DNA from: Bacillota bacterium
GTDB lineage: Bacteria > Bacillota > Negativicutes > Sporomusales > CTSoil-080
DNA: 64,000 nucleotides
Assembly (NCBI GenBank): GCA_017889635.1
Contig: JAGGAC010000001.1
Coordinates: forward strand, 62,001-126,000
Direction of reading: 5' to 3'
A model generated the notes under the pieces. The model was not told the DNA's origin and did not search any database. It worked only from the letters and a program-made list of their open reading frames with translations. The position numbers and the translations under genes were made by a program. Shown in pieces: positions 4,521-15,562 of this stretch. Each line of letters begins with the position of its first letter. Position 1 is the first letter of the stretch.

Positions 4521-5330
4521 TTACTTAGTTTGCTCTTTTTCAGCTTTGACTACAAAACCATTTTTGTTAAATTCAACAGTAGTACCTGCCTCATACGTTT
4601 TTAAAACACCTTCAGAAAGAAGTCCATCATCGGAAAGCAATTTAGATTCTTTATTTAATGTACCTTTGATAACTTCGCCTCTATCGTTTAATTCGATATT
4701 CTTCTTTTCTTTGAACTCGATAAATCCAGGAGAGTTATAATTTTTTGTATAATTTTCAATTAATATTTGTTGCCAACCGACAGGACGCATATATGTATTT
4801 TGAGATAAACAAAAGGTAGCTGGCATACCATTGGGATGAAAACTTATTTCACCTTCGGATACAAATATATGATTTGAAGTATTTAATGAAATACTATCTC
4901 CAGCTGCCAAAGTACCTCGAATAACCTCGCCTCGTTCATTAAAAGTAACTTTTGTACCTCCTTTAAAAGTAAGCACCCTATATAGAGGTTTTGCCTCGGT
5001 AGTAGTATTAATAAAAATGGGGAGAGGCGGTGGGGGATTCGAAATTTTATTAAAGGAAGATTGAGTTTTACCTGTTTCATAGGGGAGTGAAGCATTTTCA
5101 GCTAATACACCCTCAAGAACCTCGCCGCTCTGATTAAGAATAACTACTGATCCCTTCTTAAACTTTGGGATTGAATCCCACCAAGTAACAATAACCCCAG
5201 GAGGCGTTATTCTTGTATTTTCCGTCAGGGTTTTAGTATATACTGCCGCATTTGCATTCAAAGGATTACAGAATATTATAATTGTTGAAAAAATAATACC
5301 GACTGAAACTTTTAATAAAAACTTTTTCAA
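4521..5330 (-). CDS. Secreted protein with repeated N-x-x-G-E-V-x-x-G-x-L units
   Basis: 269 aa with a clear signal peptide (cleavage after NANAA). The mature part is made of diverged repeats centred on motifs such as LNQSGEVLEGVL, FNERGEVIRGTL and LNDRGEVIKGTL, ending in FNKNGFVVKAEK. Each unit pairs a short V-x-F/L-N strand with a turn and a G-x-L strand, which suggests a beta-solenoid or hairpin stack. It superficially recalls MORN/YwqK repeats, but the spacing differs and no family is claimed. Its location would be the periplasm or outer surface. The gene is monocistronic, with an AT-rich upstream region shared divergently with the MFS gene at 5579. Confidence 0.7.
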   Translation of the reverse strand: MKKFLLKVSVGIIFSTIIIFCNPLNANAAVYTKTLTENTRITPPGVIVTWWDSIPKFKKGSVVILNQSGEVLEGVLAENASLPYETGKTQSSFNKISNPPPPLPIFINTTTEAKPLYRVLTFKGGTKVTFNERGEVIRGTLAAGDSISLNTSNHIFVSEGEISFHPNGMPATFCLSQNTYMRPVGWQQILIENYTKNYNSPGFIEFKEKKNIELNDRGEVIKGTLNKESKLLSDDGLLSEGVLKTYEAGTTVEFNKNGFVVKAEKEQTK

Positions 5331-7831: not shown

Positions 7832-8098
7832 ATGTCTTCATGCAGATATTATTGTTGCGAAAGAGGTGCAAATTTTTGCGGCTTTTCTGATGAATCGGGT
7901 GTTAAGCTTGTTTCGCCGGTGCTTAAAGAAGCGGTGGCAAAAGGCGCAAAAGTGCGATTGTTTATGGGGCGGTACCTTGGGATTACCGAGCCGGCAGCGC
8001 TGTATTTGCTTAAAAAGGAATTCGAAGAATTAAGATTTCATATCAGGTTTTTAAAATTGAAAGGTAAAATTAAATGTATAAATACAAAAAAATTCTAG
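7832..8098 (+). pseudogene. N-terminal fragment of a PLD-like-domain protein
   Basis: The frame encodes FSDESGVKLVSPVLKEAV..KGAKVRLFMGRYLGITEPAALYLL, which matches the start of the phospholipase-D-like nuclease domain found at the N-terminus of many DEAD/DEAH helicase-type proteins. The catalytic HKD motifs and everything downstream are missing. The frame runs into the start of the next gene (overlap 8074-8098) and has no ribosome site. The first residues (SSCRYYCCERG) do not fit the family either. It is read as a decayed fragment, possibly of a former defence or restriction gene. Confidence 0.5.
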
Positions 8099-9688: not shown

Positions 9689-9739
9689 AACCAAAAACCA
9701 CGGCTTAGTCAATTTACGACTTCTCCGTGGTTTTTGGTT
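9689..9739. repeat. 15-bp perfect hairpin, left border of the defence cassette
   Basis: AACCAAAAACCACGG (9689-9703) and its exact complement (9725-9739) form a 15-bp stem with T-rich ends in both directions, so it can serve as a terminator. Bases 9692-9712 match 14492-14512 at 20 of 21 positions, i.e. beside the right end of the Gabija-like genes. Confidence 0.6.
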
Positions 9740-10149: not shown

Positions 10150-12102
10150 ATGCATATATCAAAACTTAATATTACTGGGTATAAGAATTGCCAATTTAAC
10201 TCAGAGATAGAATTTAATAAAGGATTGAATATTTTAGTTGGTGAAAATGGAGCAGGTAAAACTACTATTATTAATTCTTTAAGATTAATTTTAAAAGAAA
10301 ATGAGTCTTCATATATGAATATTAATGAAGATGATTTCTATAGATCTTTAGATAACGAAAAAGTTGCCGAGAATATTAAAATCGATGTATTATTTGATGG
10401 ATTAAAGCCAGCTGAAGAAATAACGTTTTTAACGTGGTGTGATAATGAATTAAGAGCACAACTTCATTTAGAGGTGTGTTCAATACCAAATGTAAAAGGA
10501 TATTATAAAAAAGAAATCTGGGGTGGTAAATCTAAATCAAGTATATTTGAAGAAGAAACTTTTGAATGCATAGATTGTATATACTTACCACCACTTAGAA
10601 ATGCTGAAGATAAATTAACTAATGGAAGAAGTTCAAGATTGGCATTGCTTTTAAAAAAGCAATACGGAGATAATAGGGAGAAAATAGTAGAAACTGTCCA
10701 TGAGTTTAATAATAAAATAACTAATAACGTTGATGAAAAATATAATGAAATCGCATTAGCTAAAAAAAACATAAATGATAAATTACTTGAATCTTTGGGG
10801 GAAAAATTTGGACAAAGCATAAACTTACAGTTTGCAGATATAACTTTTAATAAAATAGTAGAAAGTATTAAAATGGTTTTTTTCCCAAACTGTTTTGAAA
10901 CAGATATAAAAAAATTTCGGGATATAGCCATTAATAGCTTAGGCTATAATAATTTATTGTACATTGCAACAGTATTTGCAGAACTTGAACTTTTAAAAGA
11001 AAATAATTTATTGACAATATTACTTATTGAGGAACCTGAAGCCCATCTACATCCACAGCTTCAAGTAAAATTTATCCAATATATTGAACAATTATCCAAA
11101 TCAATTGAGAATATTCAAGTTATAATAACGACTCATTCACCTGTGCTTGCTTCATCTGTAAGTGTAGATAACTTGATACATATTAAAGAGTCAAACGGTC
11201 AAATACAAGCAACACCATTGAGAAGTGTTAATTTAGCTAGCAGTAAAAATTATGTTAATAGGTGGCTAGATGTGACAAAATCAACGTTGGTGTTTTCTAG
11301 GGGAATAATTCTAGTAGAAGGGATAAGTGAAACGATGCTTATACCTGAACTAGCAAAAATATGTTTAGCTAAATATTGTGCGACTCAATCGGATTTACCT
11401 GGTTCACTTGAAGAAGCAGGAATCTCTGTTATTAATATTAACGGTATAAACTTCAAACATTTTATGAAATTTTTCGCTAGTATTGATGATAGTAATAGTG
11501 AAGTGAAACTTCCGATAAGATGTTCTGGAATTACTGATAATGATCCTGAAAAGGCTACAGAATATGTAGAGGATAAAGACGGAAAAAAAGTCGAAAAAAA
11601 GATCGAATATTATCCTATTTCAAGTGATAACCCTAGTGGTGCTAATAGTGCTCTAAAATTGATCAAGGATATAAATCAAAGTAAATGTGGGCGAATGTTT
11701 AATTCACCGTTAAAAACGTTTGAATATGATTTATGTATGAACAGAAATACTAAAATAATGGCACAAGTTTTACAGGATATATGGCCAGCCAAAACTGGCA
11801 CAATAAATAAAAAATGCGGAAAGATCATTGAATTAGATAACAAATATATATATGATGAACAACTGCGAGAAGATTCGAAATTTATATATGAACATATTGA
11901 TAGAGATGAAGTTGGAAAAGGGATATTTGCACAAGTTTTAGCGGATACAATTAAAACCCTTTATGATGAAAAAAAATTGCAAATTGCAAATGATCAATCT
12001 AATCTAGAGGAAGTAAACAAGAGTATTCCAGATATATTTAATGTTCCTGAGTATATAGAAAATGCTATTATATGGGCTTGTGGTGGTGAAATTAGTGAAT
12101 AG
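10150..12102 (+). CDS. gajA: OLD-family ATPase/TOPRIM nuclease, Gabija GajA-like
   Basis: 650 aa. The N-terminal half is an ABC-type ATPase with Walker A GENGAGKTT (31-39) and Walker B LLIEEPEAHLHPQ (Glu294), followed by TTHSP (H-loop). The C-terminal half is a TOPRIM nuclease with ILVEGISET (Glu390) and ITDND (Asp463, Asp465), so the metal-binding residues are intact. OLD-family proteins paired with a UvrD-like helicase form the Gabija anti-phage system, in which GajA nicks DNA when nucleotide levels fall. The next gene overlaps its end. The coding sequence is visibly AT-rich (many AAA, ATA, AAT codons) compared with flanking genes, pointing to horizontal acquisition. The remote possibility is a non-Gabija OLD/helicase pair. 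Confidence 0.88.
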   Translation: MHISKLNITGYKNCQFNSEIEFNKGLNILVGENGAGKTTIINSLRLILKENESSYMNINEDDFYRSLDNEKVAENIKIDVLFDGLKPAEEITFLTWCDNELRAQLHLEVCSIPNVKGYYKKEIWGGKSKSSIFEEETFECIDCIYLPPLRNAEDKLTNGRSSRLALLLKKQYGDNREKIVETVHEFNNKITNNVDEKYNEIALAKKNINDKLLESLGEKFGQSINLQFADITFNKIVESIKMVFFPNCFETDIKKFRDIAINSLGYNNLLYIATVFAELELLKENNLLTILLIEEPEAHLHPQLQVKFIQYIEQLSKSIENIQVIITTHSPVLASSVSVDNLIHIKESNGQIQATPLRSVNLASSKNYVNRWLDVTKSTLVFSRGIILVEGISETMLIPELAKICLAKYCATQSDLPGSLEEAGISVININGINFKHFMKFFASIDDSNSEVKLPIRCSGITDNDPEKATEYVEDKDGKKVEKKIEYYPISSDNPSGANSALKLIKDINQSKCGRMFNSPLKTFEYDLCMNRNTKIMAQVLQDIWPAKTGTINKKCGKIIELDNKYIYDEQLREDSKFIYEHIDRDEVGKGIFAQVLADTIKTLYDEKKLQIANDQSNLEEVNKSIPDIFNVPEYIENAIIWACGGEISE

Positions 12103-14134
12103 GGAGGAATGTTGCAATTTGGTTGCCAAAATTTTGTGTGGCAAGCAGAAAGGAATTGATTATAAAAGATGCTATGAGAATTCGAAAACAACCAATGGTA
12201 TTTGTTCTCTTAGCCAACAATGTAGAATTGATGAAAAAACCAAAGAACAACTTCTTTATATATTAGCACCAATTGATCAGGATGCATTTCTTGAAGCCTG
12301 TGCAGGCAGTGGAAAAACTGAAGTTGTGGGTATGAAAGCCGCATATGAGATGATAAAATGGAATAACGTATCAAGAAAAGGAATTGCAATATTATCTTTT
12401 ACTAATGAAGCGACAAATGTCATAAAAAAAAGAGTAGGTGAATTTTTAAAAAAAGGAGGATCAGTGTATCCACATTATGTTGGGACATTGAGTAGCTTTA
12501 TACATGGTTATATAACACAGCCATATGGTTATAAATGTATAGATAACAGTTCTAATAACCTCTCGTTCAGAATAGTTGATAAAGAGGAAAGACCATATAA
12601 GAATCATTGGTTAATTAAATATTGTTGCGAAATTAAATACATAGATAAAGACGGTAATAAGACAGATATTTATGCCAACCAAATATATTTTGATTATCAA
12701 CATCAAGATTATTTAATTTATTTAGGTAATAATGTAGAAGTCTACTTTAAAGAATATTATAGGTCTAAACAATTTCAAGATTTTGTTAATAATCTAAGGG
12801 AAATGAAGCAAAACAATTGGATGTTTGGTATGGATTATTGTTACAAATTAATAAAAAAATGTAAAGATGAATTTTTAAATGATAGATTTGCAAATTTTGA
12901 AGATATGAATAATATTGCATATGAAGTCATGCTAAATAATAGTAAGCTTCAAACTGTAATTTCAAAAAGGTTTCAGCTAATTATTATTGATGAGTGTCAG
13001 GACTTATCTTGGATAGAAATACAAATTCTTAGTAAATTAAAAGAAAAAGGTACAATTTTACATCTTGTTGGTGATATTAACCAAGCTATATATGAATTCA
13101 AAAAAGTAGATTCAAAATTTGTTAAAGAATATGTAAAGTATTTCAGCTATTTTAAGTTGACAAATAATTTTAGAAGTTGTCAACCTATAGTTGACATATC
13201 CAATAAATTAATAAACATACAAAATGTTATTACAGGAAACAATCAGAATAAATATGATGCTAATAGTGTTCTTTATATTGAATATAATACTGCTATAGAA
13301 GCTATAGAAAAATATTTAGGTTTACTAAAACAATTAGGGGTTAATTCAAGGAACTCAGCTATTATAGTAAAACAAAATAAATTAAAAAATGAACTGTTAT
13401 ATACACTTAATAATAATGAGGATATACATTTGCTGATTTCGGCATTTCAGTTATGGAATTCTCTACTGCCTTTAAATAAATATAAAGCTTTACAGTTGGC
13501 AGGAAAACAAATTTCTAAATGGTTTGGAGGTGCAAATAGCAAAAAAAATTATTATTGTCCGCTTGACATAGAGTCTGCTTTTGCTTGGAGAATATTTATT
13601 AAGGATGTTTTAGAGGAGTGCACATTAAATGCTCGATTAATGGACTTTACTTTGCAGTATAGTGACTGGTATAAAAATGCACGAAGTAATCTGCCAGTTA
13701 TATTTAAGCAAACTTACCAAGATTTAGAGAAATACGATAAAAATGCTGGAAATAGAAATTTTGATAATTTTACATACAGGACACCTAGTAAAATCGGAAA
13801 TCTAAAAATTGAAATGATTGATTTAAATATTAAAATAAAAGAAAATATAGATGTAACAACAATACATGGTAGTAAAGGTTGTTCTTTTGATAGTGTTATG
13901 GTCATATCGAGTATAAATAATAGAAGTGATGGTGGCCATTGGAAAAATCATTGGATTGATGGAAATGAGCCAGAAAAAAGAATTGGGTATGTTGCAAGTA
14001 CGAGACCTAGATATCTTTTGGTTTGGGCAGTTCCAATATTAAAAGACGATGACAGAATTTTACTGGAGAGTTATGGATTTAATTCTGCAGACAAGGTATT
14101 GAATGTACAAGCTAATGTAGACGGTATACTCTAA
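12095..14134 (+). CDS. gajB: UvrD/PcrA-like superfamily 1 helicase, Gabija GajB-like
   Basis: About 679 aa. All SF1 helicase motifs are visible: Walker A ACAGSGKTEV, Ia SFTNEAT, II IIIDECQDLSW, III GDINQAIYEF, IV LTNNFRSCQP, V TTIHGSKGCSFDS and VI YVASTRPRYLL. In Gabija, GajB assists the GajA nuclease. It is longer than typical GajB and has a Cys-rich N-terminal segment before Walker A (Cys at 6, 7, 15, 26, 37 and 43 from the chosen start) that might bind zinc. Start is uncertain. GTG 12095 overlaps the gajA stop by 8 nt and suggests translational coupling; ATG 12062 lacks a ribosome site; TTG 12119 follows AGGGAGG but would remove two of the Cys. Confidence 0.85.
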   Translation: MNREECCNLVAKILCGKQKGIDYKRCYENSKTTNGICSLSQQCRIDEKTKEQLLYILAPIDQDAFLEACAGSGKTEVVGMKAAYEMIKWNNVSRKGIAILSFTNEATNVIKKRVGEFLKKGGSVYPHYVGTLSSFIHGYITQPYGYKCIDNSSNNLSFRIVDKEERPYKNHWLIKYCCEIKYIDKDGNKTDIYANQIYFDYQHQDYLIYLGNNVEVYFKEYYRSKQFQDFVNNLREMKQNNWMFGMDYCYKLIKKCKDEFLNDRFANFEDMNNIAYEVMLNNSKLQTVISKRFQLIIIDECQDLSWIEIQILSKLKEKGTILHLVGDINQAIYEFKKVDSKFVKEYVKYFSYFKLTNNFRSCQPIVDISNKLINIQNVITGNNQNKYDANSVLYIEYNTAIEAIEKYLGLLKQLGVNSRNSAIIVKQNKLKNELLYTLNNNEDIHLLISAFQLWNSLLPLNKYKALQLAGKQISKWFGGANSKKNYYCPLDIESAFAWRIFIKDVLEECTLNARLMDFTLQYSDWYKNARSNLPVIFKQTYQDLEKYDKNAGNRNFDNFTYRTPSKIGNLKIEMIDLNIKIKENIDVTTIHGSKGCSFDSVMVISSINNRSDGGHWKNHWIDGNEPEKRIGYVASTRPRYLLVWAVPILKDDDRILLESYGFNSADKVLNVQANVDGIL

Positions 14135-14491
14135 GAAAGTGAAAGTTTAACTTCAATCTCTATTCGGCTCAAAAAATTGCTTTTATAAATCCTATTAAAC
14201 GTTATATTACGCTATGAATAGTTACAAGTAGTGGTAATATCAGCTTAGTTATAGCCAAGTACCAATTTTTAGGATAATAATTAGCTTGGCTAGATACTAG
14301 TGTTTTATATAATTATTACATGGAAAAGAATTTGTAATGACCGCTTGGCTTATGTACAGGCTGGCAGACTAAATTAGCATATAAAAATCTTAGTTTCTGA
14401 AAATGCATTTTAAGCTGGAGTTTGAGGCACTGTCAATACAACGATTCAATGTACCAATCTCCAGTTGTCTAACAATAAAATAAATGTCAAA
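14135..14491. other. AT-rich non-coding stretch after the defence cassette
   Basis: No gene, strong promoter or terminator is visible here. An inverted pair TAGCCAAG / CTTGGCTA (about 14252-14292) is short and widely spaced. This stretch separates the helicase gene from the convergent XRE regulator. Confidence 0.4.
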
Positions 14492-14531
14492 CAAAAACCA
14501 CGGCTTAATCAACAGTGATTTCGCCGTGGTT
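14492..14531 (-). terminator. Terminator of the XRE gene; right-border repeat
   Basis: On the minus strand AACCACGGC and GCCGTGGTT form a 9-bp stem followed by a T-rich tail. One arm overlaps the stop codon of the XRE gene. Its sequence repeats the left hairpin at 9689-9739 (20 of 21 bases over 14492-14512), so the two copies bracket the defence genes and transposase debris. Confidence 0.65.
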
Positions 14532-14913
14532 AATCTTTTTTATTTTGTTTTGTGCGGTTATAGATAAATTCTAAGGTATTGAGGATATATTGTTTGTCTT
14601 CTTCCTTCAGAAGTAAATCGCGGTAGTAGACTTCATCTTGTTTTAGGATTTTTTCGAGGTCTTTAGGACCTTTTTCAGTTTGTTCGGGTATAGGACTTGA
14701 ATTATTAGTGAGACCTAAGAGATAGTCGGTGGATGTAGCTAAGGCCTTAGCCAAATTTATAATATCATCATGGCCTATTTCTGGGGTATATTCGCGTTCC
14801 CAATTAGAAACTACTTGTGGAGAAACGTGAACCAAGGTGGCTAATTGCTGTTGAGTTAGTTTTTGATCTTGGCGCTTTTGGCGAATCCTTTGGGCCGTTG
14901 TCGGCTTTTCCAT
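14530..14913 (-). CDS. XRE-family transcriptional regulator
   Basis: 127 aa with an N-terminal Cro/CI-type helix-turn-helix at about residues 8-65 (RIRQKRQDQKLTQQQLATLV..VSPQVVSNWERE) and LAKALATSTDYLLGLT, the usual end of the HTH_3 fold. The acidic C-terminal tail (about 75-127) has no known domain. It is transcribed away from a region packed with TAACG half-sites (14947-15118), so it probably represses itself and the divergent small gene at 15229, like a phage-type switch. Its location next to the Gabija-like genes might mean it belongs to the island, but the genes converge and share no promoter. Confidence 0.85.
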   Translation of the reverse strand: MEKPTTAQRIRQKRQDQKLTQQQLATLVHVSPQVVSNWEREYTPEIGHDDIINLAKALATSTDYLLGLTNNSSPIPEQTEKGPKDLEKILKQDEVYYRDLLLKEEDKQYILNTLEFIYNRTKQNKKD

Positions 14914-14946
14914 ATAACCAACTCCGCTAATTTGTTAGCTATATTT

Positions 14947-15118
14947 TAACGTACAATAACGAATATTGATATTTAAGTAACGAGTTTTGAGAAATAACAC
15001 GAATTTTTACTTGACACTAACGAAAAACGTTATTAAAATAAAGGCGGAACCACTCAATTAGTAATGAAAAGTAAAGCAACAAAATATTTTTTTAATCGTT
15101 AGATAACGAATTGCGTTA
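14947..15118. promoter_or_regulatory. Operator cluster of TAACG half-sites
   Basis: Eight copies of TAACG or its complement lie within 172 bp. Two form perfect palindromes of the same architecture: TAACG-N5-CGTTA at 15018-15032 and at 15104-15118. Single half-sites are at 14947, 14957, 14978 and 15097. The first palindrome sits inside the spacer of the promoter at 15011-15039, so binding would block RNA polymerase. The adjacent XRE protein is the obvious ligand (inference). Confidence 0.7.
15011..15039 (+). promoter_or_regulatory. Promoter with operator in the spacer
   Basis: TTGACA (15011-15016), a 17-nt spacer and TAAAAT (15034-15039) form a near-consensus vegetative promoter reading rightwards toward the small gene at 15229. 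The TAACG palindrome at 15018-15032 fills the spacer. Confidence 0.8.
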
Positions 15119-15228
15119 TATGGATAAGGGCAATAGTTTGTAGGTTTCGCCCAACTCCAATATCCTGGCATGGCTAAAGCCTTGTCGCAGTCTCACAACA
15201 TTTAGATGGGAGGTAATAATCTAGATGA

Positions 15229-15420
15229 GTGGAGTCGACTCGGCTACATTCTCCAAGATGCATTGGTTTGCGGTGGGGGGAGCGGGTTCTAAAAGACAAG
15301 GATGACGGGATATATTATAACGCTAGGGTACTTGGCCTAGCGTATAGAGCGCTAAAACAGCGTAATTTCACGGTAAATTGGGCAAAAATGCTCGAAGCGG
15401 GGGTGTTTAAAGAAACATAA
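15229..15420 (+). CDS. Small hypothetical protein under the XRE-controlled promoter
   Basis: A 63-codon frame opening with GTG 15229. Its C-terminal half (GIYYNARVLGLAYRALKQRN..VNWAKMLEAGVFKET) looks like a genuine helical protein, whereas the first 20 residues do not. A good ribosome site (GGGAGG, 15208-15213) serves ATG 15225 in another frame instead, which stops after 26 codons. A frameshift near 15290-15305 may therefore have split one gene. A terminator at 15430-15463 follows. No family is recognised; a repressor partner or toxin/antitoxin-like role cannot be decided. Confidence 0.4.
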   Translation: MESTRLHSPRCIGLRWGERVLKDKDDGIYYNARVLGLAYRALKQRNFTVNWAKMLEAGVFKET

Positions 15421-15429
15421 ATGAGACTT

Positions 15430-15463
15430 AATTCAGGTGGGGTTTTAACCCCAGCTGAATTTT
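15430..15463 (+). terminator. Terminator after the small gene
   Basis: AATTCAGGTGGGGTT and its near-complement ACCCCAGCTGAATT close on a 3-nt TTA loop, followed by TTT. It ends the XRE-controlled transcript before the flavoprotein gene. Confidence 0.75.
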
Positions 15464-15562
15464 AGTCGAATTATCCAGGGAATTAGCCGTTCTTTACTCC
15501 AGCCTGTAGAGGATGAAGCACGCGAACGGGTTATTCATCGGATAAAATTGGGAGCGGGGATT

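Follow-up and report, generated by a model that had tools for sequence, protein, structure and literature searches.

Gabija systems are defined by the pairing of an OLD nuclease with a UvrD-like helicase (PMC10568477). The nuclease, GajA, has been characterized as a nucleotide-sensing site-specific nicking enzyme (PMC8136825), and it must assemble with the helicase, GajB, into a 4:4 complex for defence to work (PMC10781630, PMC10822852). DNA is made sensitive to Gabija by phage proteins that bind its ends and block RecBCD (PMC12407980), and how these systems sense their targets is still debated. The solved Gabija structures that we found derive from one small GajB, that of Bacillus cereus VD045, which has neither a Q motif nor an N-terminal adenine-contacting element, and the papers describing it make no mention of zinc (PMC10822852, PMC10681800).

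Here, we describe a gajAB pair carried by a stretch of 64,000 nucleotides from a Bacillota bacterium (Negativicutes, Sporomusales; contig JAGGAC010000001.1, positions 62,001 to 126,000 of the forward strand), the whole of which is called the window below. The pair is very probably a complete Gabija anti-phage system, a horizontally acquired operon of a class 2 OLD nuclease and a UvrD-type helicase with a probable metal-binding module in GajB, and its role in defence is predicted. The system is in itself ordinary, being a known kind of a common bacterial immune device. What is apparently undescribed is a cysteine-rich N-terminal module that marks a rare, phylogenetically spread GajB subtype, which also has a fuller UvrD-like architecture and a probable Q motif.

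The gajAB pair and its assignment to Gabija

The pair is encoded by two adjacent and intact open reading frames (ORFs), at 10150-12102 and 12062/12095-14134, with the following features, numbered along the window:

10150..12102, + strand: GajA, an OLD-family ABC ATPase with a TOPRIM nuclease, 650 amino acids (PADLOC PDLC00091; Pfam AAA_15 and OLD-like_TOPRIM; top Foldseek matches 8sm3_A and 8u7i_A)
10240..10263, + strand: GajA Walker A motif GENGAGKT, residues 31-38 (G31, E32, N33, G36 and K37 invariant in the alignment)
11317..11319, + strand: catalytic Glu390 of the GajA TOPRIM domain, invariant in the alignment and equivalent to E379 of VD045 GajA by motif order (PMC10781630)
11536..11544, + strand: DxD motif of the GajA TOPRIM domain, Asp463 and Asp465, invariant in the alignment
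12095..14134, + strand: GajB, a UvrD/Rep-type superfamily 1 (SF1) helicase, 679 amino acids from a GTG codon (PADLOC PDLC00129; start chosen by the conserved overlap and the alignable N-termini of homologues)
12305..12319, + strand: GajB Walker A motif GSGKT, residues 71-75, invariant in the alignment
12989..13000, + strand: GajB Walker B or motif II, DECQ, residues 299-302, invariant in the alignment

An earlier note on this DNA had described an intact OLD ATPase/TOPRIM protein with Glu390, Asp463 and Asp465, overlapping a UvrD-like helicase by 8 nucleotides, and both the ORFs and the aligned residues bear it out: E390, D463 and D465, along with E394, D527 and K590, are invariant across 12 GajA sequences, and the overlap is 8 nucleotides when counted from GTG 12095. 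The seven SF1 motifs that it had mentioned were each located in GajB (AGSGKT, SFTNEA, IDECQD, VGDINQ, NNFRS, TIHGSKG and VASTR), and Q52, invariant in 13 aligned sequences, marks a probable Q motif. Its proposal of a Gabija identity likewise agrees with the model search, in which GajA matched PDLC00091 at 755.8 bits over residues 1-647 of 650 and GajB matched PDLC00129 at 561.8 bits over residues 40-665. All 12 GajA and 13 GajB homologues match the same two PADLOC models, while NCBIfam gave sub-threshold matches only for the pair.

The fold search points the same way. With the AlphaFold model of GajA, built from the 12-sequence alignment (mean predicted local distance difference test, pLDDT, 70.9; its domains may be placed differently), the solved GajA chains 8sm3_A and 8u7i_A ranked first and second in Foldseek (E 2.9e-15), at low template modelling (TM) scores of 0.34-0.39. 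VIA-align placed this model on GajA 8x5i_D with Z 17.2 over 459 residues, a value tied with SMC heads, which cover the ATPase part only, and on the C-terminal region of a class 2 OLD nuclease (6nk8_B) with Z 16.2 and a root-mean-square deviation (rmsd) of 2.8 Å over 182 residues. For the GajB model (13-sequence alignment, pLDDT 83.4), the domain 1A/1B region was superposed on VD045 GajB with Z 21.0 and rmsd 2.3 Å over 210 residues. The catalytic motifs are thus intact in both proteins, the genes are coupled, and both Gabija models and Gabija folds are matched; since an OLD nuclease and a UvrD-like helicase together define Gabija (PMC10568477), the pair is assigned to this family.

Certain comparisons count against the assignment. 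When PDB sequences were searched with the GajA profile (E up to 10), VD045 GajA was not among the 60 best matches, which sets the pair far from the prototype, and the GajB model as a whole fits UvrD/PcrA better than VD045 GajB. The GajB profile reaches VD045 GajB at 2.8e-27, no better than it reaches PcrA. To judge from these alignments, the pair appears to sit in a Gabija branch distant from the studied VD045 prototype. The closest resemblance of the GajB model, to UvrD/PcrA, would also suit a non-immune class 2 OLD/helicase module built from the same folds and serving DNA repair or plasmid maintenance, and some OLD-family ATPases do have cellular roles, such as the archaeal Cran1 (PMC12796447). 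However, the very high scores with both PADLOC models, the patchy, mobile distribution and the location of relatives in defence islands, where a second Gabija pair (L016), a type III restriction-modification system (L018) and a SIR2 gene (L015) are found as neighbours, render such a module very unlikely.

From homology and from knowledge of the family, we infer that this GajA would form a tetrameric DNA nuclease inhibited by adenosine triphosphate (ATP), onto which GajB would dock to give a 4:4 complex. The complex may then cut invading DNA once the ATP inhibition is lifted or once it encounters DNA ends that are unprotected or phage-bound. GajB would act as the DNA-stimulated ATPase, and defence by this pair is predicted on the same grounds.

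The cysteine-rich N-terminus of GajB

Residues 1-2 of VD045 GajB align to residues 50-51 of the model, so that residues 1-49 are extra here. This extension is made of an N-terminal helix and a cysteine loop, with the consensus C-x7-C-x2-C-x8-C-x5-C-R (C1 to C5) directly before the Q motif; as Q52 is invariant, it runs straight into this probable motif. Its features in the window are:

12095..12241, + strand: N-terminal Cys-rich extension of GajB, residues 1-49, conserved in homologues
12137..12139, + strand: Cys15 codon (C1), invariant in the Cys-type clade (alignments)
12170..12172, + strand: Cys26 codon (C3; alignment)
12203..12205, + strand: Cys37 codon (C4; alignment)
12221..12223, + strand: Cys43 codon (C5), invariant in the Cys-type clade and followed by R-[IV] (alignments)

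Up to six cysteines before Walker A had been pointed out in the earlier note; six are present and the extension proves to be a conserved feature of a subclade, but only four of them (C15, C26, C37 and C43) fall at conserved positions. Cysteines make up 12.5% of GajB residues 1-48 versus 1.7% of the rest (Fisher p = 6e-4), and over eight Cys-bearing sequences they account for 40/366 residues of the extension versus 85/4945 elsewhere (p = 2e-17, not corrected for kinship).

The reality of the extension depends on where GajB begins. GTG 12095 was preferred as the start, the alternative in-frame ATG at 12062 giving 690 amino acids, because an identical 8-nucleotide overlap at the homologous residue is found in nine loci (L005, L006, L007, L010, L011, L013, L015, L016 and L017); in other loci, the overlap is 4 nucleotides (L014) or 14 nucleotides (L018). 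The Cys-rich stretch could be untranslated if GajB started near residue 45-50, as in VD045, whose start aligns with residue 50 here, and the PADLOC GajB alignment itself begins at residue 40. However, between GTG 12095 and Walker A the frame has no further ATG or GTG and only two TTG codons, at residues 9 and 14, each of them 5' of Cys15, so the four conserved cysteines stay inside GajB whichever start is used, and no usual start codon would exclude them. The extension moreover aligns across several Bacillota classes, in which its helix is conserved and C15, C43 and R44 do not vary, and the recurrence of the overlap places a start codon at the same residue among homologous loci. An untranslated stretch is therefore extremely improbable.

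A query of the contigs with the single protein gave no matches, and the homologues were found with an alignment query. At least seven distinct relatives across Bacillota bear the Cys-type extension, each with at least four of the five aligned cysteines, including members from Fusibacter (L005/L019), Cohnella and Paenibacillus (L007/L010/L011), Clostridiaceae (L013), Syntrophomonas (L015/L063), Paenibacillus (L016) and Pseudoflavonifractor (L018), as well as L006. C15 and C43-R44 are invariant across these members. All five cysteines are kept in four distinct sequences and exactly one is lost in the other four (L007, L010 and L011 counted once), the lost one being C2 in the window and L016, C3 in L006 and C4 in L007/L010/L011. 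Nested among the Cys-type members, the clade L012/L014/L017 (support 99/97) retains the helix and the EKT end, has dropped about 13 residues and has at most one cysteine left. More distant GajB proteins (L009, L027, L028, L068, L071, L073 and L075) start near the core or carry no Cys cluster there, and L008, a deep phage-labelled contig, has a Cys-rich N-terminus of its own, which may be ancestral or convergent.

The varying loss of single cysteines and their joint loss in the nested clade fit a four-ligand metal site, probably for zinc. The cluster could instead form redox-active disulfides or an iron-sulphur (Fe-S) cluster, making GajB redox-responsive rather than structurally braced by zinc. 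The extension offers four to five cysteines and no conserved histidine in the alignment, many relatives belong to anaerobic lineages, in which Fe-S clusters are stable, and AddB and XPD-type helicases carry such clusters. Against this, no correspondence was established between the cysteine spacing and known Fe-S helicase signatures, and some Cys-type members come from Paenibacillaceae, a family that is not strictly anaerobic; we consider a redox or Fe-S role rather unlikely. A structural zinc site also has observations against it: the AlphaFold model has a confidence of less than 50 at residues 31-41, inside the Cys loop, so the geometry of any metal site is unreadable, and the family can do without the site if the systems of the nested Cys-less clade are functional. 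A Pfam search with the first 61 GajB residues, a very short segment, gave no match, to a zinc-finger family or any other, at E up to 1.

With a metal site as the preferred reading, the module would most likely hold a structural Zn2+ ion, less likely a [4Fe-4S] cluster. Such a metal would stabilize the leading part of helicase domain 1A, close both to the ATP site and to the GajA-facing side seen in the solved complex. The ATPase domain of VD045 GajA is touched by domains 1A and 1B of its GajB (PMC10822852). A bolder proposal would make the extension a regulatory module belonging to a distinct Gabija subtype, in which a zinc or iron-sulphur site beside the Q motif would read DNA ends, nucleotide or redox state and gate both helicase and nuclease; we regard it as unlikely. 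Were it true, the evolutionary loss in the nested clade would provide a natural test of what the module does. On any reading, the Cys-type GajB and its close relatives with natural loss of the module offer a clean comparison for the role of the GajB N-terminus. We found no discussion of zinc or of an N-terminal Cys module in GajB in the searchable literature, outside of which most subscription journals lie.

Composition, mobility and surroundings of the cassette

The earlier note had also judged the coding sequence richer in A+T than its flanks and horizontal transfer likely, and both judgements hold. The G+C content (GC) of gajAB is 0.288 versus 0.422 in 12 kb of flanks, and at third codon positions (GC3) it is 0.19-0.20 in gajA and gajB versus 0.31-0.51 in the flanking genes between 5.5 and 19.4 kb, with 0.23 in ORF 4521-5330. 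The codon profile, proposed in that note as a further check, is less telling: gajA and gajB are atypical (distance 0.18-0.19, typical values being 0.10-0.14), but several ordinary genes of the window score equally high, so codon usage alone is weak evidence of transfer. Homologous cassettes are AT-rich too, with GC of 0.31-0.40, below that of their own flanks, sometimes only slightly.

GajB was found at E <= 1e-30 in none of 149 other related genomes, and the 20 nearest genomes yielded no strong match to the flanking flavin adenine dinucleotide (FAD)-dependent gene, so no syntenic empty site was available for comparison. The L007 locus, on a Cohnella herbarum plasmid, and the L010 locus, on a Paenibacillus mellifer contig, match at 100% identity along a stretch of 9,977 nucleotides that includes gajAB, which indicates that relatives do move; the identity reflects either a recent cross-genus transfer of the element or contamination of one assembly. 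Horizontal transfer of gajAB is well supported by composition, by absence in relatives and by this identical related cassette in two genera. The transposase debris reported beside the cassette found no confirmation: fragments translated from the DNA beside it (9.9-10.1 kb and 15.3-15.4 kb) matched neither Pfam nor PHROG families, and the 370 nucleotides upstream of it have no second copy in the genome.

Among the loci compared (L011-L018), neighbours vary and no third gene is conserved, and the RNA-family search gave no match. The stretch shared by L007 and L010 also holds a RES-domain gene directly upstream of gajAB. A helix-turn-helix (HTH) gene and an ImmA/IrrE-like gene lie beside gajAB in L005. 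The second Gabija pair of L016 (Paenibacillus sp. Soil750, L016:7850-11536) belongs to another subfamily (PDLC00067 GajA and PDLC00132 GajB) and adjoins the first on the opposite strand.

Around the cassette itself, three related terminator-like hairpins (AACCACGGCTTA[AG]TCAA...CCGTGG) were found on one contig, at window positions 9689-9739 and 14477-14550, which bracket the cassette, and at G000:C68:51447-51480. The two bracketing inverted repeats were considered as ends of an element and rejected, the third copy lying 20 kb upstream by unrelated genes; they are read as related terminators. Downstream, a DicA/RstR-like HTH repressor gene (14530-14913, - strand) has AACG...CGTT operator-like repeats upstream of it (14914-15130), and this region (14530-15130) resembles the immunity region of a phage or mobile element. 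A dispersed repeat of about 130 nucleotides (15417-15547), with an internal hairpin, lies directly upstream of the FAD-dependent oxidoreductase gene. The genome has about 18 near-full copies of this repeat, 82-97% identical, along with many fragments, and no Rfam family corresponds to it. On the other side, an orphan ORF of 88 amino acids (7832-8098), between the amidase and phosphodiester glycosidase genes, has no Pfam match and by eye resembles an N-terminal piece of a phospholipase D (PLD)-like helicase.

Comparison with known systems

With the Gabija system of B. cereus VD045 (PDB 8SM3, 8U7I and 8X5I), the locus shares an OLD ATPase-TOPRIM protein with a complete E/DxD site followed by an SF1 UvrD-like helicase, at approximately 16-23% identity by structure alignment. 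Its GajB differs from that of VD045 in length (679 versus 494 amino acids) and in the added N-terminal Cys-rich module of about 49 residues, and PDLC00129 contains no counterpart of about residues 1-36. The description of the helicase as enlarged in the earlier note is thus apt mainly beside the small VD045 GajB; the PADLOC GajB models listed are mostly 540-660 positions long, and relative to them only about 45 residues are extra.

The TOPRIM C-terminal region is shared with the class 2 OLD nucleases of B. pseudomallei and Xanthomonas (6NK8, 6NJV), of which only this region has been solved, the ATPase part lying outside the comparison. In its helicase architecture, GajB resembles the UvrD, PcrA and Rep DNA helicases, with Z 23-25 across about 420 residues; to our knowledge, those helicases are not paired with OLD nucleases and have no Cys module before the Q motif. 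Finally, the ABC ATPase domain is common to the OLD protein of Retron Eco8, PtuA of Septu and AriA of PARIS, that of Eco8 having the TOPRIM fold as well; in contrast to these systems, the locus described here includes no reverse transcriptase or HNH partner and combines ATPase and TOPRIM in one gene.

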